A stretch of DNA of 64,000 nucleotides from Rhizophlyctis rosea (taxonomy: Eukaryota; Chytridiomycota; Chytridiomycetes; Rhizophlyctidales; Rhizophlyctidaceae): positions 90,081-154,080 of the forward strand of contig JADGJC010000067.1 of the NCBI GenBank assembly GCA_027596075.1, given 5' to 3'. This document shows positions 2,820 to 58,235 of the stretch, piece after piece. Both the position numbers and the translations under genes were made by a program. Below the pieces are notes generated by a model. The model did not search any database, was not told where the DNA came from, and saw only the letters and a list, made by a program, of their open reading frames with translations. The first letter of the stretch is position 1. The number at the start of each line of letters is the position of its first letter.

Positions 2820-3791
2820 ATGGTATTGGAGAGTCGATCAGAAAGACGTTGCCTCATTATTGACTGGTGTTGCGCCGCGCTGTAGGCAACAATAAAACTT
2901 GGTTCCCTCCTCGTTCGCACGCTTGCGAAACCCCTCGCGAACTCCATAAAGGTACAAGCCAAGGCAGGTATCTACCGTCTCTCACTGCGCTTCTGAAGTC
3001 TGCGTACTTTCAATATCAAGTCGCGTGGCTCTGTTGCAAATCTCCGTCTCAATACGAACTTGGACTGATACCTACCTCCTGCTTCAATAGAACCACCCCG
3101 CATTCCGGGAATTCTGTATAAACGTAGCACAAGTAAGTCATATACCTAAAGAACAGTAGTGAAGGCGAAAGGTTTATGTCTTACGCGTGTTCCGCAGACA
3201 ACACATCGATGGGAACAAAAACTACAAACCAAGTTCCTTGGCTACACCCCAAAAACAGTCCGCCCGCTAAACGACGCAAAAGCAATAGAAAACGGAGCAG
3301 CATTTCTTAGCGAAGGGTTCATCCTTTCAGTTGCAATATTGACAATATGTACGGACATAACCTTTTGCAATTCTGGCCGTGCCACTAACAAGAAACATCA
3401 AACAGTAGGAGAAACCTGGCGCTCCCAACGCAAATCCGCCGGTCAAAAGCGCGACGTCCAAGAATCAATCGACCAACTAGAATCCTCATGTGCCACCGCT
3501 CAGGACGAGATAGAAGAACTACGGTCGGCAATGTCGTCAGTAACACGGGAATTAGATACGTTACAGCAGCAGAATCACAGATTACAGAGTACGCTAGATT
3601 CGTTAGTTCGAGTAGTACGAGATCAGGAGGTGGGGAGACACGGGTGGATACATTGGACGCTGAGGGGGTGGTGGGAGGCGGCGGAGAGTGGGGGGCCTCC
3701 GGAAGGAATGCTAGATGGAGATAGAGGGAGTAGAGAGAGAAATAGAAACCCGGAGCGAAGGAGTGAGATCACGTCGCTACCAGCCAGTTGA
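2820..3791 (+). CDS. OPA3: OPA3-like mitochondrial protein
   Basis: Spliced reading join(2820..2822, 2886..2963, 3091..3132, 3198..3348, 3406..3791) gives 219 residues. OPA3 proteins are small mitochondrial inner-membrane or matrix-facing proteins that affect cristae and organelle shape; the exact reaction is unknown. The family blocks appear in order: MATIKLGSLLVRTLAKPLA, then NHPAFREFCINVAQ, then HRWEQKLQTKFLG, RPLNDAKAIENGAAFLSE and a hydrophobic segment ending in ETWRSQ. After these comes a coiled coil of about 60 residues and a basic tail, longer than many homologues. The first exon is only the ATG, which makes the start the weakest part of the model. The second intron fits the frame only with a GC donor (2964-3090); the other three are GT-AG. 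The 57-nt last intron is a multiple of three, so unspliced reading stays open. Confidence 0.8.
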
Positions 3792-3976: not shown

Positions 3977-6652
3977 TCACCATTCACCAATTCCCCGCCA
4001 TCCAGACATCAGCAGCAGATCCGGAGCTATTGCCGCCGAGGACGACTCTGATTGCCCATCGCTCCCCACATACGATTCATTATCAATTCCACTCTCCAAC
4101 CACGCCCACTTGCTTGACGACATCTTCCCAATCCCATTCGTTGCTCCCGAAACTGACCCCACATCGATCCCGCTATCCGACCGATAAGATATCGCAGGCG
4201 ATGCCCTTCCAGCCATATTTCGTGACATCCTTCCCGTATGGATAACACCAGATGCACGAGATGTGGGCCGACTATCCAGAGTCACACTAGTAATCACAGT
4301 CTCCTTCTCACCACTTTTCTTTGCTAAAGACGAAGGGGGTCGTCCTTCCCATCCTACAAGTCTCCCTCTCCGTTCATCCATCCCAGTAGATTCACTCAAC
4401 ATCCCATCCGCCCTCCCCTCATCAGGAACATACACAGGTATGAAACATCCCTTCCCAATCTCCCTCTCTAGCGGTCCTGGCACGACGCTCGCGCGCGAGG
4501 GCGATCGTTCCGGACTAGGAAATCGTTTCCAAATCCTTCTGGCTTTCAACGCTCCGCCAGATGGTCTTCTAAAGCCTCCTTCAGCACTCATATCATCGGG
4601 CGAGGTTGTGCGTGGCATGAGGATTGGAGGCAGTTTGCCTACTGTCTGGGATAGGGCGGTGAGGAGGGTTGTGTTGTTGCTGTTGAGTGTGATGTTGAGA
4701 AGGCGGGATAGGCGGGTCATAGTCACTTCCGTGGAGTTCTGGCAACAACTAAGGATGAGATGCTGCCCATAGGATGCTGAACATTGCAGAAATGCCACTT
4801 ACCCAAATGGTTTGTACTCTGTTCTCGACAAATCGTTCTACGGTATCCCACGGAGATTCCTGACACGGGATGCAAATAATGTGGTGGGGTTTGTCATACA
4901 CCAATGTCTGTCCCTCAAATATCAACCTGGATTGATGTCTGTTGGGCGGTTTCCTTTGCTTGAGCGAAAGAGGTGGTGTAGGGGAGCGAGACGCGGGCGC
5001 AGAATCGATTTCCAAGATTGCACGATACCGCTCCCCATGTTCACCGACATTCCGAAGGCATTCTTCTTTCATGAACTCAACAAACTCCCCATCCGTCCCT
5101 TCTCTTGGCGAGAAATCCGCATCACTTGCAATGGATGTTCCGTTGAGTCGTGTGAAATGAGCTGTTAGGCGTTTGAAGGTGGTGCTATCTATTGGGATGG
5201 AGGTGTGATGCAGGAATGGATCCTTCGGGTCTGTTATTGTGATGATGTATTGTGACGGCTTTTGTCGTGTGCTCTGTGAATTGTATTTTCACGATTTTCA
5301 ACATAGTACTGGTGACCAACCTGAAAATGTACAGAAAGAACCATAGTTCTATGCTCCGACGAATAGTCGTCTTTCTTTTGCAGGATAAGGGGAATAGTCT
5401 TCGAAAACATAACTGGTTTGGTGATGTGAGAGTCAATGGATGTGCATGCTCTACAAACATTTATTCGTACCTTTCCCCTTTGCCCCAAAACAGTCTTGTT
5501 GATGTCCTGAGTGAGATATATTCTGTATCCATGGTTTGGACAAAAGGCCAAATGATGGTGTGCTGGCACCAGTTTCCCATGGCGGAGGTTCGCAATCATG
5601 TTCCAAAAGAAGTCCTGGCTGATGTCGAGCAACCAGTTCCAGAGACTGCATGAGTGCTGTCTTGGCCAAAGCGTCATGCGCCTGTCACGAAAAGGCAGTT
5701 AACTTCCTCGTCCAGGGCACTCAACTGCGTCATTCAAACCTGCGCACGATCATACTCGGCCCAGACATTATCCATTATCTCCGACCAGGCGGCAACTGAG
5801 AATTCAATCGCGAGTAACTCCGTCTGCCGATATTCACGAATGATTTCGACAAAAGAAAGTCCCGCTGATTCATTCACGTCGTCAATCTGGAGATACGCTT
5901 TGAACCTGATCATCGTACAGTTTAGTTCAAACAGAACTCAGATAGACCAACATTGGTACGTATCAAGCTAGTATCAGTGTCCTCACGCACTTTTGTGGGT
6001 TGGACGCACATAATAGCACCCGCTCCTTCAGTCGGTCCAAGAAACCATGAAACAGCTTCATCAGCACATCTTCTCTTTCAACACCATTCCATCTTGCTCT
6101 CTGCGCCAGTGAACGGAAGCTGAAAGGTGTCAAGTCAAAAACCCAGCGGGCAAAGCTGCCAAGCTGAGGACAAGCGAGTATGATGCGGTGGTGCTGTGGA
6201 TATCTGTGTTGTTGTGATGGCTGAACGGTCACCGCGAGTTTCACATGTTTGGACTTTGGGATGATCTCAGCGGGGAAGGTTTTGTGCCATGGTTTTGCTG
6301 GATGAATGTTTTGGACACCTCCACGCTTGTACATATAGATGCAACAGGTGACGTTGAACGCACCTTCTGGACCGCTCCAAGGATCCTTTGCCCAACTGTT
6401 CAAACTGTGGGCGCCTGCCTTTGCTGCATCACGACTGCCGGAATTGGAGATGCCAAAGAGCTCAACATCCACTTTTTGCGCGAAAGCTGGTTTTATATGA
6501 GTGTGTAGAATGGTACCCGCGGGTATATCGGGTGGGGAGCCGCTTGGCCCAATGACACCTGGTATAACACCTGGATCGTATGTGTGCAACGTCGATGTTA
6601 TCGGCGAAGGTGGATGCACCAGGAAGGGGTCGGGATGAGGTGCTGTTCGCAT
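3977..6652 (-). CDS. Tandem double SAS-6/PISA-like head protein
   Basis: Spliced model complement join(6652..5991, 5905..5740, 5681..5471, 5412..5321, 5273..4803, 4738..3977), 787 residues. Known: SAS-6 heads are beta-barrel dimerisation domains that build the centriolar cartwheel; related folds occur in CCDC61 and XRCC4/XLF. Seen: two consecutive segments follow the SAS-6 head block order. Head 1 (about 123-290) has RWVFDLTPFSFRSL, LFHGFLDRL, FKAYLQI, LSFVEI and LLAIEFSVAAWSEI. Head 2 (about 347-535) has MFSKTIPLIL, IITITDPKDPFLHH (compare the family LTDxxDPFFLY block), FVEFMKEECL, YRAILEI and HHIICIPCQE. The C-terminal 250 residues are Ser/Arg-rich and disordered; the long coiled coil of classical SAS-6 is missing. 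The intron 5470-5413 joins the halves in frame. Without it they would be two genes 40 bp apart. The N-terminal start and the extreme 3' end (a GTGAGT overlaps the stop) are uncertain. The homology is by eye. Confidence 0.55.
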
Positions 6653-6964: not shown

Positions 6965-9900
6965 TCAATGAGCTGCCTGCAATAAACCCATCTCTTTCCA
7001 CAGTCCTCCAAAATCGACAATCCTCCTTGCATTCTTATCCAGATATCGTTGAACCAACTTCCGTAATGGCTCCAACCGCTCTCCCTCCCTCTTCACCACA
7101 GGTGCAAGCATCGGATCTACCAAGACCATTGCGTGAATACTCCCTGACATAGCATCATTAGAAACAACATTACACTCCCTACCTCCATGCCCGTCAACCT
7201 TCTTCTGCACATCAAACAGCCTCTCAAAATACTCCAACTGCCGATACAACATCTGATCCGTAAACTCCAAGCGCACCGTCCCCCCTTTACAGTTTGCCAA
7301 ACACCGTCGTCCATACACTCCAATGTTTCGCGTCCGTGTCTGACACGCCGCATCCTCGCACACAACCCATCCACTGGCGTATCGCCGCACATGCGTCCGG
7401 ATGGCGTCGTTGAGCTGTGCTTCCAATGACGGCAGCGGCATATCGCGTTTGCATGAGGCGTTGGTGCATGTTGTCGAGGAGACCACTTGGCCGTCCTGAG
7501 AGTGGGACTATGAGTCAAGAAGATTGATGCAAAGGCAAAGTGGTTGGCTTACATTCAAACGAGCCACGGGCTCGAATTCCGCCCGCTCACCGCACCAACG
7601 GCAACGCGGGGTCCATCGCACAACATCTTTAAAACGTTCCGCGTCTGTGATCTGCGACTCAAACGTGTACAGCTGATCCATTTCCATAGGCGAGCTTGCT
7701 GCAGCACTTTGGTGGTATTTGGCCGCGTCAAGTCCTAACAACTCAGGTCTTAGCATGCGAATTACATCACCGGCTCGTACAGCAAAGCTTACCCAAACAC
7801 TCCGCTATCCGTCCAGGATCTGTTCCTTCAATGGGTTGACACAAACGCGAGACTGGTGGATGTATCTGATTGCTTAGATACCATTCCACATCTATTTGAT
7901 TTGATTAGCATATGAAGCACAAAATATGAATTCAGTTCATTCACAACTAACCAATCTTCCGCCCACTTCCCTCCCTCAAAACTTCATCCGGGTGGTATGC
8001 CCTAGCGGCGATCAACCCTCCCGTATCTCCCTCACAAATGACGTATGGAATCGTATCTCCCACTTTCGCCGCCTGTCCTTTGGCTTTCATCTGAAGCGCA
8101 ACTTGCACGTGTGGTTGAGACTTCTTGTCCGCGTATTCTTCTGGATTCTTCGTCAAGCTCTGCAAAATTTGGTCAATAACAGCTTCACGGCGACTTAAGA
8201 TAATCATTATGTTATCCACCTTGTTGATCACATATTTCTCGATCGGTACTTTGTTTTCTCGGACATCTTCCGCAACCTTCGTCAAGTGCTTATGTATTCT
8301 CTCCAATAACTCGTCACGTCCCTCGCCAGCAAAGATCTGATTGAGCACGTATCTGCATAATGATATGGACCATTACTCATCTGCATGTACCGTGCAAAGA
8401 CATGACACCTGAAACTCACTGAGAAACATCATGACTCAATCCACACCAGTCCCTGCGCACAAGATCCAACCCCTTCGTCTCGATAGACTGTTGCAGCCTC
8501 CCATCCTTCTCCTCAACCACAAGCGCAGCATACTTCTTCTTCTTCAACAACAACATCCTCTGAAAGAACCCATCCATCTCGATTTCCAACAAGTTGTATC
8601 TTTTGTTGACCGCCTTCTTGAAGTCATTCCCGATACGCTTGACTTCGGGCAATTTGTCGGTGTGGGTGTTGATCATGATGGAATCCGTGTCACCGTAGAT
8701 GACCTACTTATTGCTGAGCATTGGATTCTCAGAAGCTCATACAGTTTGCATGAGTGTAACCTACCTCAAGCCCTTCATTTTGAGCTAAATCCACAGTGCT
8801 TTGCAAGATCTCTCGACCTTTTGCCGTAATAAGCATAGCCAATGGTTTCGCGAAGAACCGCGAGTGGGAGAATCCCAAGCATCCGTACATGCTGTTCGCG
8901 GTTAATTTCAGGGCTTTTTGCCTAATATCATACTACATCGGACAGGACTCAATGCGCGACTGAGTGTTATGAATGTCGAAAGACGATTTACAAACCTGGG
9001 CCATCTCTGCTGGGTTCAGCTTGGGATTCTTCATCAAATTCTTCACAGCTCTTCTACGATCAACAAGCGTACCAAGTAGTCTTGGCAGTATTCCTCTGGC
9101 GATTTCGGGATCAGGCGGGTCAGGGAGTTGGTCCTCCTGCAAAAGTCGTTAGAATTCAGCCCTTCGCATGAAACTACATTTCAGACGATTGCCTGTGCAT
9201 TAGAGGTGCGTTCGACCGTCGTGAAACAGATGTTGTATTCTTGGATGATAGACGGGTACAAACTGTTGAAATCGAGCAGAAGGATGAACTTGTCATAGAA
9301 GCCTTTCTTCGGTTCTAGCACGAGACCACCAGCGTAAGCTGGCTTCCTCCTGCTGCTCCCCTTCTTTGGTGCGGGTTCGTCGTCTACGAACGGTATGTTA
9401 GTGTTACCATGACAATCTCAAAAAGACCCTGGTACCAGAACCTACCATCATCGTCATTGGCCTGATCGACTACCACGCGGTTGTTATTCCCGAAGAACTT
9501 ATCCGGCACAATGTACTTCTTATCGTGGAACTCGTGCAACAATAGGTACTCATTGCGTTCAGCACGTGCACCTGTCATTGATCGAGACCTTGTGAAAGAG
9601 CATTATGAGTTGTCTGTCCAGAGGACAACGAATGGCTGTGTTCCCTCACGACTCACCATAGATTCCCCGCCAGATTTGTCAACTGCTTGGTAAGGGGCAG
9701 CACTTGTAGCTTGAACATCAATTGAGCCGCCAGATAACCATCAAATTGACAATGGTGTATCATTTCCAGCAACTTTCCAGCATCCCAGAAATATGTCGGT
9801 ATTTTGTCGAAATCGATATTGGGACGCTCGATGTTCAACTGCGATTGCGCCAGGGACGTCATGCTGTACGACTTGGATCTAATCAAATCCTGTACAAGGG

Positions 9901-51662: not shown

Positions 51663-54266
51663 TCACCCATCCATCCCCGAAATCCCTAACCCCTTCCACC
51701 GCCCCCTTCTCGCCAAACACTCCAAACTCCTCCCCCGAATAACAACATCAACCCTCGCAAGCTTGTTAGTCGTCAAAGGACTGTTCTCCATCCCCACCGA
51801 CACCGGCAGCATCTCCGTCATATGTGCATGCTGGAGGGTTTTGGACAGCTGGGGGACTTTGGACTCTGGTTGGGGCTTCTTAAGTTCAGCAGTGAAACCA
51901 TCGCGTCGGTATGGGCAAGGCCTTTGGAGTGGGCCGACATCTTGCATTACTGTGTCTTCGTCGGGGGATGAGGGGGGTTCTGGAGGGTTGGTGAGTTGTT
52001 CTTCGTTAGCTTCCTCTTGACTGTCGTCCTGAATCTCCTCTCCCCCTTCCGCCTCTTCCTCCACCTCCTCCATTTCTTCGTCGTCGTCTTCTTCGTCCCC
52101 TTCCTCTTCCTCTTCCTCTTCTTCTTCCTCCTCTTCCTCCTCTTCCTCCTCTTCTTCTCCCTCCTCTTCTCCCTCCTCTTCTCCCTCCTCTTCTTCCACG
52201 TCCTCTTCTTCCACGTCCTCTTCTTCCACCTCCTCCCCTTCAGCATCTCCCTCTTCGTCCTCGTCCTCCTCTTCTTCCTCCTCCTCCTCTTCCTCCTCTG
52301 AACTATCTTCCGAATCTTCAGTAATCAACCCCTCAAAATCCTCCCTCCCCACCGCATCAACAACCCCCCAGACCTCCGAAGGCCTAACCGCTGTCGCCGT
52401 AACATCGATCCACTCCAACTTCCCAAGCGGCCTACACAATCCTGCACTCAACAGCTCCACACCCCTCATCGTGACCGCAATATTATGACTCAAATCAACC
52501 ACTTCCAACTCCCAGCATCCCTTCAGCTTCGGCGCTTTCACCCCACTTCCCTCATCACCCTCCACCCCGCTCCCCTGTCCACCCTCCGCAACAGCAACCG
52601 ACGCCTCCCCATCATTCTCAACCCACCTCCCACACAAGTACCCAACGCCAACATCCGTCACCGTCCCCCCTTGCACCTTCAAAACCCTCAATCCCTCACA
52701 CCAGTCCCCCAAAGCCTTGACGACCTCATCCCCAACCGTCGGGAACCAAGTAAACTCCACCTTCCTCAACCGCCCCGCCCGACTCGTAACAAGGTACACA
52801 AACGCATCCCGTCCCGGCCCCAACCACGTCTGCATCAGCTCCCGTCCCGCGCCCGAGGAATTCTGGATGGAGATATCCTCGAGGTTTTTCAGATGATCTG
52901 TTAGAGATATGATGTGTGCTGAGGTGAGGTACTTGGCTCGGTGTAAGGTCAGGGATTTGAGGTTTGCGGGGAATAGGCGGTGGGGGAAGGTGACGTAGGT
53001 TGGGTTTGCGGCGCCTTTTGCGGGGACGGGGATGGATACTTCTACGTGTTGGAGGTTGGGATGGTCGGATTTGAGTGTTTGTAACAGCCATTCGAAACCT
53101 GCGATGATGAGTGGAATGTAGGAGTTGAGCTTAGTCGGGCTTTCCCACGTAATCTTCTCTTCACCAATTTCCCATTCCATACCTGAGCGAGTGAACTTCC
53201 TGCAACCAGCAAATTTCAGCTCGGTCAATTTGCCACGATGAGGAGTTAGAGCAGTTCCTTTGACTGATGGGCGGGTGCTGCTGATAGGCTCCTCAGCGTC
53301 ACTGTCGTCATCATCTTGTAGGGCTGAGACTGCATTAGGATTGAGCACGCGCTTCCGAGCTTCCTTTACAAGTCCCTTCTGACAAGCTCGTAAAAATTTT
53401 AGCATGCCACTATCGCTAATCCGACAGCAGTTGGTAACATCCAAGACCTCAATCCCGGCCCCGCATTCCTGGCCCAAGCGGACCACTCCTGCGTCACCAA
53501 TATGCCCGCACCCACGAGTGACGACTCGATTTAGCCGTTTCCATGGCCCGCAGAAGGCTGCTAGAACTTCGAGTGTAAGATCGGTGACTCTAAGGCAGTT
53601 GGTTATGTCCAAGGAAACGAGGCGGGGTGCGAGGAGGGTGACAAGAGGGAGCAAGTCGTCATCCCCAAGCGTGCGACAATTGGCGAGGGTTAGATGAGTT
53701 ATGGGTGGTGGGTGGTTTGTTAGGGTTGTGATGTGACGCGAGGAGACGTATGATGGGAGAAGGGGAAGGAGAGCGAAGGATAGACGGCGGATGGAGGGGT
53801 GACCGGTTCTTCCCACAGGATTTGGCAGTATTGTTTTCACCGCTGCTTTGCCCTTCTCATCGTTCGCCCGTCCCTTCCCTTTGTCTTTGCCTTTTCCCTT
53901 CCCTTTGCTTTTGATCGATTCTCTTTCACTAGCAAGACGGTGTTGAGCGTCCCCGTTGTCATTCTGGAAGGATCGCAGTAACAACTCAAAATCTTTAAAC
54001 CCAAACAACTCCGGTTCGTGCCATAACGCTTCGACCGCAGGGAAGTACCAGCTCTTCGACACTAGGCACGCTGAGTGAAGCGTTAGGCGGATCGAAGCTC
54101 TGTGTTCGACGTGGTATGGGGACGTCGAAGTATATTGCGTGATGGGGTCGGAGGAGTGCAGGATGTAGATGAAGATTTTGGACAAGAGCTCCGGTGGGAG
54201 GTGTGGTGACTTTCGTTTTGTCAGATTTCGACCAAGGACATAGTCCCAGAAGATGTCGTTGTCCAT
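51663..54266 (-). CDS. F-box protein with leucine-rich repeats and an acidic tail
   Basis: Single exon, 867 residues from ATG 54266. F-box/LRR proteins bind Skp1 through the F-box and present substrates to SCF ubiquitin ligases through their repeats. The F-box is near the N-terminus (HLPPELLSKIFIYILHSS, then LVSKSWYFPAVEALW). AMN1/GRR1-type LRRs follow from about 150: LTLANCRTLGDDDLLPLV, SLDITNCLRVTDLTLEVL, GCGHIGDAGVVRL, VLDVTNCCRISDSGML, and after a spacer HRAKYLTSAHI, then TVTDVGVGYL. A Lys/Gly-rich low-complexity run (KGKGKGKDKGKG) lies near 118-130. Residues about 655-765 are nearly all Glu and Asp, including unbroken Glu runs. The final 100 residues are Pro-rich then basic. The absence of introns over 2.6 kb is unusual in this window. 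Target unknown. Confidence 0.82.
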   Translation of the reverse strand: MDNDIFWDYVLGRNLTKRKSPHLPPELLSKIFIYILHSSDPITQYTSTSPYHVEHRASIRLTLHSACLVSKSWYFPAVEALWHEPELFGFKDFELLLRSFQNDNGDAQHRLASERESIKSKGKGKGKDKGKGRANDEKGKAAVKTILPNPVGRTGHPSIRRLSFALLPLLPSYVSSRHITTLTNHPPPITHLTLANCRTLGDDDLLPLVTLLAPRLVSLDITNCLRVTDLTLEVLAAFCGPWKRLNRVVTRGCGHIGDAGVVRLGQECGAGIEVLDVTNCCRISDSGMLKFLRACQKGLVKEARKRVLNPNAVSALQDDDDSDAEEPISSTRPSVKGTALTPHRGKLTELKFAGCRKFTRSGMEWEIGEEKITWESPTKLNSYIPLIIAGFEWLLQTLKSDHPNLQHVEVSIPVPAKGAANPTYVTFPHRLFPANLKSLTLHRAKYLTSAHIISLTDHLKNLEDISIQNSSGAGRELMQTWLGPGRDAFVYLVTSRAGRLRKVEFTWFPTVGDEVVKALGDWCEGLRVLKVQGGTVTDVGVGYLCGRWVENDGEASVAVAEGGQGSGVEGDEGSGVKAPKLKGCWELEVVDLSHNIAVTMRGVELLSAGLCRPLGKLEWIDVTATAVRPSEVWGVVDAVGREDFEGLITEDSEDSSEEEEEEEEEEEDEDEEGDAEGEEVEEEDVEEEDVEEEEGEEEGEEEGEEEEEEEEEEEEEEEEEEEGDEEDDDEEMEEVEEEAEGGEEIQDDSQEEANEEQLTNPPEPPSSPDEDTVMQDVGPLQRPCPYRRDGFTAELKKPQPESKVPQLSKTLQHAHMTEMLPVSVGMENSPLTTNKLARVDVVIRGRSLECLARRGRWKGLGISGMDG

Positions 54267-54525
54267 AAGCGCTTCCTTATGGGGGTTAAGTGTGGCCAGA
54301 GAAACGAGTGTCGACTCGACGCTGAAAAGGTCTTGATAAGTATGGTAAAAAGCTGGGTAAATAAGCAGGTCAAGACAAGACGCGACGTCTCGACGTCACC
54401 CGAGAATCAGATGTGGATCTGAATCCTGATCGGGCTTTTCTGCCATGGAAAGCTGACTTCTATTGTAGTCAACTCGACCTCCACATAGATCTGTCCACGA
54501 AGAAGACCCGTCCCCGCATTTCGCT

Positions 54526-56133: not shown

Positions 56134-57681
56134 CTAAATGTCATCAACCCGATCTCTTAGCTCCTGCAATCTCCTTTCCAACATTTGCTCCTCCTCCTCC
56201 GCCTTCAAAACTTGCTCTGTCTCAGCTATTTCCCTCCGTAACCTCTTTCTCCTACTTTCCAGCCGCCCAATCCGCATCATGAAAGCATTCCTAGACGCTT
56301 CATCCTTCTTTTGCTCCAAGTTATTAGCCATCCTCTCCAGATCCACTGCATCCTCCATCATCCGCACCGTCTCCTGCTCCCTAAGCATCTGCTCCTTCTT
56401 CCGTTTCAATTGCTGTCTGGTATTTTGGTGCTCAGATGGTGTTGCCTTCTCTTTTGTGACGGCGTGGGAAGCTGCGGGAGATGGTGGGTTGGTAGGATTC
56501 CTGCGATTGATCAATATGCCAGGTTCGTCTTGATCTTCAAGTTCTGTTGCCGTGATCTGAATTTGCTGTGAGACTGATGCTGCTTCGGCGGGCAAAGGAG
56601 ATGGTACGGGGGAGGATCTGGCGGATCTTGCACGTTTGCGTGGATTGCGTGTAGAGGTTGCCGCCATTTGAGTTCCTTGTGGGATTGATGCTGCTTCGGC
56701 AGGCAAAGGAGATGATATGGTGGATATTGCACGTTTGCGCAGCTTTGGTGTGTAGGTTGGCGGAAAGTGGATAAGTCTTCCTTTGGAGGTTTTTGCATGT
56801 CCCACCTTATTTCCACCATGGTGCGCCTTTTGAGTGGGTGAGATCCTGTCGACATGGAAGTCATTGCGGTCGTCGGCAGTTGCAGAAGGGAAGTCGGGGT
56901 CATCGTCGTTTTGTGATTTTGCAGGGAAATCGGAGCTACCGTTGTTGTCCAGTATCATTGGGAAATCGAGGTGGTTATTGTTGTTGGCAGAAGTTGCAGG
57001 GAAAGTGTGAGGTGAAAGGGTACGTGACGAGGTGCGGGACTCTTTTTTGACGGAGGGTACCGTGCGTCTGCCTCTTCTCAAGACTGACAAAGACCCATCT
57101 TCTTTGATCCTGGACCCCACCCCGTCCCAGTATTCCTCTTCATCGTCATCTCCATACCCATCACCACCGCCACCCCCACCATCACTACCGCTACCCCCAC
57201 TATCACCTTCACTATCCCCTTTCCACAACTTGTTGAGTACCCGGAACCCCTGTTGCATCAAATGCTGTTTCAAAGCATCTCCAATTGCAAACTCTTTGCC
57301 CACCGGATGTCGCTCAGCCCTCCCCTCGTGCTGCCAGTCCTCCAACAGGCAGCGTGTTTCACCACGAGCCGGCCTTTCACCTGGATACAATTCAGGCGGC
57401 AGAGGTTGACCTTCCGGGTTCAAGTATTTCCCACGATACTGCGTTCCCCGGGCGACTCGGAACCCTTCATCTCTCGCGAGGTGTTTGCGGAGTTTACTTG
57501 GACTGGCGTACTCACCACCGCTTTTTGGGTGAGGATTGTCTGGGTTGCGGTGAAGGTGCGCGGGGAGGCGGCATATTTTTTCGAAATGGTCTGGACGCTC
57601 GTTTGGATAGATGTCTGAAGGGAGTTGCTTGCCTTTAGGGTTTTGGAATCGGGTTTTTTGGTGAGGTTGCCGGTTGGGCAT
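56134..57681 (-). CDS. Coiled-coil protein with a duplicated N-terminal module
   Basis: Single exon, 515 residues from ATG 57681. I do not recognise it. The N-terminal 150 residues contain two copies of one module. Copy 1 runs NPKGKQLPSDIYPNERP, EKICRLPAHLHRNP, then SKLRKHLARDEGFRV. Copy 2 runs NPEGQPLPPELYPGERP, ETRCLLEDWQHEG, then DALKQHLMQQGFRVL. Each has an invariant YPxERP, one Cys followed about seven residues later by His, and a later LxxHL. The middle is disordered, with Gly/Asp/Ser runs and basic nuclear-type patches (RGRRTVPSVKK, PRKRARS). Two further copies of SSPLPAEAASxxQ lie at about 325-375. The C-terminal 110 residues form a strong Glu/Arg coiled coil (LKRKKEQMLREQETVRMMED, then RRKRLRREIAE). 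Nucleic-acid or chromatin association is a guess from charge. Confidence 0.7.
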   Translation of the reverse strand: MPNRQPHQKTRFQNPKGKQLPSDIYPNERPDHFEKICRLPAHLHRNPDNPHPKSGGEYASPSKLRKHLARDEGFRVARGTQYRGKYLNPEGQPLPPELYPGERPARGETRCLLEDWQHEGRAERHPVGKEFAIGDALKQHLMQQGFRVLNKLWKGDSEGDSGGSGSDGGGGGGDGYGDDDEEEYWDGVGSRIKEDGSLSVLRRGRRTVPSVKKESRTSSRTLSPHTFPATSANNNNHLDFPMILDNNGSSDFPAKSQNDDDPDFPSATADDRNDFHVDRISPTQKAHHGGNKVGHAKTSKGRLIHFPPTYTPKLRKRAISTISSPLPAEAASIPQGTQMAATSTRNPRKRARSARSSPVPSPLPAEAASVSQQIQITATELEDQDEPGILINRRNPTNPPSPAASHAVTKEKATPSEHQNTRQQLKRKKEQMLREQETVRMMEDAVDLERMANNLEQKKDEASRNAFMMRIGRLESRRKRLRREIAETEQVLKAEEEEQMLERRLQELRDRVDDI

Positions 57682-58235
57682 TGTTGGTGTTGCCTTCGAT
57701 GGACTACTATGCGGTACTTTTGATACTGAGGAAATACGGTAAACACTCAGCAGAATGAGTACGTTGCGCAGGCCAATTGAGCGCGAGGACCAAGATATGG
57801 ATGGGTTACAAATGTAGATTTTGACCTTTCAAAGTCATCAACAATGTGGGAATGGAGTGAAACCAAGATAAGCAATCGCAGTTGGGTCAGCTGCGGGCTG
57901 AGGCAAACTGAAACATAGCTGAGCATCGAGACAGTCATATTGTTCATGCTATCACGCACCAAAAGATGGTCGAAGGTATTGATCTTTCCGGTAGGCTGTA
58001 GCAATTGTATTGAAAAGCGTTACTTAGTGTACACTTGACGAGCATTGTCAAAAGCATTGGGAAGTACGGGAGGATAGGCGGTTACAGCATCTAAATACAG
58101 TGATTCAAATGATGAAAACAATCCACCAAAAATTATTTTGAAGGACTTGACAGCACATATATTCAAGACAAACATCAGACATGCACATATATGCAAGACG
58201 GACAATAGCACAGGAAGAAAGCCAGACTCGGAGCT
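57682..58235. other. Intergenic between tandem minus-strand genes
   Basis: Upstream of the coiled-coil gene and downstream of the hydrolase. No gene seen. Confidence 0.5.

Follow-up and report, generated by a model that had tools for sequence, protein, structure and literature searches.

The gene studied here occupies positions 6652–3977 on the minus strand of the window, by which we mean the whole stretch of 64,000 nucleotides that was analyzed, and it is real. Its six exons join in frame to encode a protein of 782 amino acids, or 787 with an alternative acceptor for intron 4 (Table 1; residue numbers follow the 782-residue model). The gene lies between an OPA3 gene, encoded on the plus strand at 3150–3788, and the final exon of DNA polymerase alpha (zf-DNA_Pol, 6968–7507).

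Table 1. Features of the two-head gene, in window coordinates
Feature	Position	Strand	Description	Basis
Exon 1	5991..6652	-	residues 1-220; N-terminal extension and first half of head 1	gene model
Exon 2	5740..5905	-	residues 221-276; strands 5-7 of head 1	gene model
Exon 3	5471..5681	-	residues 277-346; end of helix and linker	gene model
Exon 4	5321..5412	-	first strands of head 2	gene model
Exon 5	4803..5273	-	remainder of head 2; 5258-4803 if acceptor 5259 is used	
Exon 6	3977..4738	-	C-terminal part	gene model
Intron 3, joining the heads	5413..5470	-	58 nt; in-frame TAG at 5453-5451	
In-frame ATG at start of head 2	5408..5410	-	position where a free SAS-6 would begin	
Head 1	5800..6286	-	residues about 123-256, split by intron 1	
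Supported part of head 1	5800..6079	-	residues 192-256, SAS-6_N positions 72-135	Pfam
Predicted helix after head 1	5616..5793	-	residues 259-298, split by intron 2	crude propensity prediction
Linker between heads	5475..5615	-	47 residues, 299-345	propensity prediction
Head 2	4803..5471	-	residues about 347-529, split by introns 3 and 4	
Low-complexity loop in head 2	4935..4991	-	residues 467-485, between strands 5 and 6	
Ser/Gly-rich basic tail	3977..4630	-	residues 566-782, pI 9.4	

Codon usage was trained on nine open reading frames of the window, which themselves score 0.09–0.27 per codon. In the coding frame, five of the six exons scored above zero and four ranked first among the six frames. 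The five positive exons (0.05–0.16 per codon) comprised exon 1 (0.049, best of six frames), exon 2 (0.164), exon 3 (0.062), exon 5 taken as 5258–4803 (0.117), and exon 6 (0.056, tied with an antisense frame); exon 4 was marginal at −0.053 and likewise tied with an antisense frame. By these scores, set against those of the training frames, the gene is coding, though its bias is not strong. Four of the five introns were negative in all three frames, and intron 4 was positive in two. Elsewhere in the window, a 564-codon open frame (56137–57828, minus strand) has good codon usage, though it is itself part of the training set, and matches no Pfam family at E ≤ 0.001; a 910-codon frame (51666–54395, minus strand) has F-box-like and leucine-rich-repeat matches, both just under their cut-offs.

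Intron 4 has a second acceptor at 5274, besides that at 5259, and its use inserts the residues STRQK. STRQK lifts the Pfam score from 14.0 to 17.9 bits for head 2, with 18.5 reached by a shorter piece, and from 27.4 to 32 bits for the whole protein; we therefore prefer 5274, which judging by these scores is more likely to be the intron end. The least certain junction is the acceptor of exon 6 (4739), as intron 5 has other possible acceptors; it is located after head 2. Intron 3, which joins the heads, begins with GTACGA, ends with CCAG, and carries a branch-like motif, TTGAC, 24 nt before its end. Its splicing takes out an in-frame TAG, and the predicted in-frame joining through a 58-nt intron with good signals at 5470–5413 is borne out. 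These splice signals suggest that both heads are joined in one protein from a single transcript. An in-frame stop within the intron, together with an in-frame ATG exactly at the start of head 2, would also fit two adjacent one-headed genes, the first ending with the TAG at 5451 and the second starting with the ATG at 5410, with intron 3 being no intron. The gap between these would be only 40 nt, compared with the 312 nt that separate this gene from that of polymerase alpha, and the donor, acceptor, and branch-like signals of intron 3 are all usable; we regard two separate genes as improbable. For the single spliced gene that we prefer, retention of intron 3 (window 5470–5408, minus strand) would leave a protein with one head that stops at 5451, the start codon of head 2 following about 40 nt later, and might serve to switch between forms with one and two heads.

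SAS-6 is the protein behind the ninefold shape of centrioles: Its coiled coil forms dimers and its heads form polymers. Pfam matched the family SAS-6_N (PF16531) to two stretches of our protein, and the whole-protein scores lie above the curated cut-off of 25 bits with either acceptor of intron 4 (E 1.6e-7 with 5274), while the scores of single pieces lie below it. Over the whole protein, Pfam listed no family other than SAS-6_N at E ≤ 10. At the same threshold no family was returned for the pieces 1–332, about 330–782, and 97–298; we attribute this to the filters of the Pfam search, although it counts against two heads. The two stretches cover complementary halves of the family profile, head 1 matching positions 71–135 and the start of head 2 matching positions 2–71, and each head was therefore tested for its other half against a SAS-6 profile. 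This profile of 159 columns was built from a SAS-6 protein search (best 120 of 150 matches listed) with a length limit that excludes two-headed proteins, so that the search is no measure of their absence. The Ser/Gly-rich tail of the protein scored like a negative in the profile tests.

Head 2 passed well above chance. With its low-complexity loop cut, the alignment spans the whole SAS-6 head, covering columns 1–157 of 159 with an hhalign score of 37.4 that none of 200 shuffles reached. In a further test, none of 60 shuffles or 20 decoys reached the score of head 2, nor did any of 500 shuffles or 88 decoys in a glocal test. The second half alone, again with the loop cut, scored 20.7, a value reached by none of 60 shuffles or 37 decoys; with the loop kept, its glocal result was weak (reached by 70/500 shuffles and 11/141 decoys), and in Pfam it matched no family. 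The complementary Pfam halves had prompted the idea of a single circularly permuted head, which we rejected since head 2 itself contains the second half as well; the rejection follows the loop-cut comparison, despite the silence of Pfam and the weak glocal test. On sequence, we consider it very probable that head 2 represents a complete SAS-6-type head.

The evidence for head 1 is concentrated in its second half, from helix 2 to strand 7, which Pfam matched with E values of 3.8e-4 and 2.9e-4 among 24,736 families. The whole of head 1 aligned colinearly with the SAS-6 profile over columns 4–144, yet 15 of 200 shuffles scored as well; in the further test it was reached by 6/60 shuffles and 2/20 decoys, and in the glocal test by 15/500 shuffles and 0/103 decoys. 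Taken alone, its first half matched no Pfam family and aligned best to columns 78–137, the wrong half of the profile. As the whole is not significant and the first half is misaligned, head 1 rests on the Pfam match of its second half, where the significant sequence support lies, and a full head 1 is an inference. Similarity between the two heads was not significant (hhalign P 0.17). At the residue level, the alignment sets Tyr246 of head 1 opposite the Phe in the NDFKQL motif of SAS-6, which we take to be F145 of the Chlamydomonas protein, and Tyr498 of head 2 adjoins the alignment position of the head-contact Phe in the turn between strands 6 and 7. F145 of Chlamydomonas SAS-6 is needed for the head–head contact, and the mutation F145E abolishes higher assemblies (PMC3089914).

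A complete SAS-6 head has seven strands, with a helix-turn-helix placed between strands 4 and 5. Two contiguous pieces were folded with AlphaFold without any alignment. The exon 1 model (residues 98–220) is of low confidence, with a mean pLDDT of 47.8; it has strands near 122–128, 140–145, 155–160, and 169–173, three short strands before 120, and helices at 179–189 and 193–216, and this order of strands followed by two helices is that expected for a SAS-6 head. In the exon 5 model (mean pLDDT 46.4), strands were placed near 380–386, 396–401, and 503–509 and helices at 402–416, 433–461, and 513–528, while strands 5 and 6 were not formed. SAS-6 was absent among the matches listed in fold searches with these models, which at pLDDT 46–48 are too poor for that absence to carry meaning.

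Given the weakness of head 1, another reading has to be weighed, a protein whose sole true SAS-6 head is head 2 and in which head 1 is some other small domain or a decayed head, making the whole SAS6L-like and one-headed with a long N-terminal extension. Such a protein would agree with the 15 of 200 shuffles that reach head 1 and with a first half that has no Pfam match and is drawn to the wrong part of the profile. It accords poorly with the significant Pfam matches of the second half, with the colinear alignment over the whole head, and with the order of elements in the exon 1 model, and we consider it unlikely, though deserving of attention. Two SAS-6-type regions in one chain are the best reading, with the first half of head 1 unproven, and the protein is best described as one complete head plus one probable head with half of its evidence. 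The original prediction of two tandem SAS-6 heads accordingly holds for the block order of head 2, which is far above chance, and for the second half of head 1; for the first half of head 1 it is unproven.

Outside the heads, the protein has an N-terminal extension of 122 residues and a C-terminal tail of more than 200 residues, whose Ser/Gly-rich basic composition suggests that it is probably disordered. Neither a coiled-coil family nor the Sas-6-like_oligomerization family was listed by Pfam for the whole protein at E ≤ 10, whereas Chlamydomonas SAS-6 gave PF22331 in the Pfam search. With SAS-6_N as its sole family, the protein agrees with the predicted lack of a long coiled coil. Crude propensity prediction places a helix some 40 residues long behind head 1, its heptad pattern being weak; behind head 2, a helix appears only at residues 513–528 of the poor exon 5 model and is not shown by the propensity method.

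The superfamily has further members, and the duplicated head in the chain could be of one of these types (CCDC61, XRCC4, XLF, or PAXX) instead of the SAS-6 or SAS6L type. In CCDC61, strands 5 and 6 are separated by an extra helix and a loop (PMC7267773), the site of the insertion in head 2, and a low-complexity tail is common to both proteins. Nevertheless, the long coiled coil of CCDC61 is absent here, and Pfam lists SAS-6_N and nothing else for the whole protein at E ≤ 10; no XRCC4, XLF, or PAXX family was among its results, though a remote relation may exist. We judge a head of these other types to be very improbable and keep to the SAS-6-type assignment.

Conservation would be the strongest test of a two-head protein, and the protein database yielded no relative. 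Searches there with residues 98–560 (E ≤ 0.001; 6,258 candidates) and residues 122–290 (E ≤ 10; 337 candidates) gave none; both need shared exact words, and such searches say little about distant relatives. A sequence search of the PDB at E ≤ 10 gave 4 rows with the joined heads, 4 with head 2, and 11 with head 1, none of them a SAS-6 chain, and the viral contigs scanned contained no relative. In searches of open-license PMC papers, we found no protein with two SAS-6 heads. The original remark that no described protein of this layout was known agrees with these searches as to the second head in the same chain, for which we found no precedent, but not as to the stalkless design, as the one-headed SAS6L is already known, also from a chytrid.

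Against its own genome, the two-head protein found itself only. PF16531 found only an ordinary SAS-6, below the cut-off, and nothing at E ≤ 0.001. This ordinary SAS-6 gene is separate from the two-head gene and lies at the start of another contig (C287, 1–1688), where the contig start cuts the gene and the first half of the head is missing; over 57 residues it is 50% identical to zebrafish SAS-6 (E 3.2e-10), Pfam by exon stays below the cut-off, and by eye the open frames behind it resemble a coiled coil. With an ordinary SAS-6 elsewhere in the genome, the two-head protein is probably not the cartwheel protein itself. The genome also carries Chitin_synth_1N, a fungal chitin synthase domain, IFT20, and Tcp10_C, the last being the domain of SAS-4/CPAP; all are above cut-offs, and we take them as marks of a fungus with flagella. 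On a further contig (C57, 11691–12938), there are three adjacent doublecortin (DCX) matches, two of them above the cut-off. DCX and SAS6L are both placed on the conoid fibers of Toxoplasma (PMC12819142).

Taken together, we lean toward a protein of a flagellated fungus that belongs, as a divergent member, to the SAS-6 superfamily and whose single chain combines two SAS-6-type heads with a basic disordered tail but lacks a long coiled coil, a description that we consider somewhat more probable than its alternatives combined. By analogy, such a protein may function as a stalkless SAS-6-family scaffold, perhaps a built-in dimer. The linked heads would polymerize head to head, as those of SAS6L, into a short or linear spokeless array near the basal body, in addition to the cartwheel that the genome's ordinary SAS-6 builds. 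The gene would probably have originated when two neighboring one-headed genes fused via an intron that removes the first stop codon. It is possible, but speculative, that the helices after head 1 and head 2 pair in parallel within one chain and so make the dimer. The full version of this idea is a covalent SAS-6 pseudo-dimer of fusion origin, with two full heads and short helices pairing intramolecularly, that builds or caps a spokeless head polymer at the basal body of flagellated fungi; we lowered our confidence in it because the helix after head 2 is supported over residues 513–528 only, in a poor model, and now consider it doubtful.

The geometry of SAS-6 rests on two separate contacts, one between heads and one through the coiled coil. 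A natural two-head stalkless chain, if true, would separate these contacts in evolution and open to testing which assemblies arise (rings, straight arrays, or caps) once the head pair is held by a linker. Such a chain would likewise mean that stalkless SAS-6 proteins have diversified in fungi that keep flagella.

Compared with SAS-6, head 2 aligns over the whole head, but SAS-6 consists of one head and a long coiled coil, whereas the two-head protein has a second head region and no coiled coil. In Chlamydomonas, a SAS-6 fragment with only six heptads still makes rings (PMC3089914). CCDC61/VFL3, a SAS6 paralogue, has one head, a coiled coil, and a low-complexity tail and forms linear filaments (PMC7267773); by description only, it may share with our protein the insertion between strands 5 and 6, here the low-complexity loop of head 2, and the low-complexity tail, and differs in its single head with a coiled coil, no coiled-coil family being found here. 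SAS6L has one head, no coiled coil, and little sequence outside the head, occurs in lineages with a SAS-6 as well, the flagellate fungus Batrachochytrium among them, and forms filaments when overexpressed in trypanosomes (PMC3697468); in Toxoplasma it is seen in linear arrays along the conoid fibers (PMC12819142). SAS6L, which the original prediction did not name, is the precedent for a linear spokeless polymer. The two-head protein resembles it in having a SAS-6-type head without a coiled coil in a genome that also has SAS-6 and differs from it, as far as SAS6L is known by description only, in its two head regions, its 122-residue extension, and its tail of over 200 residues.
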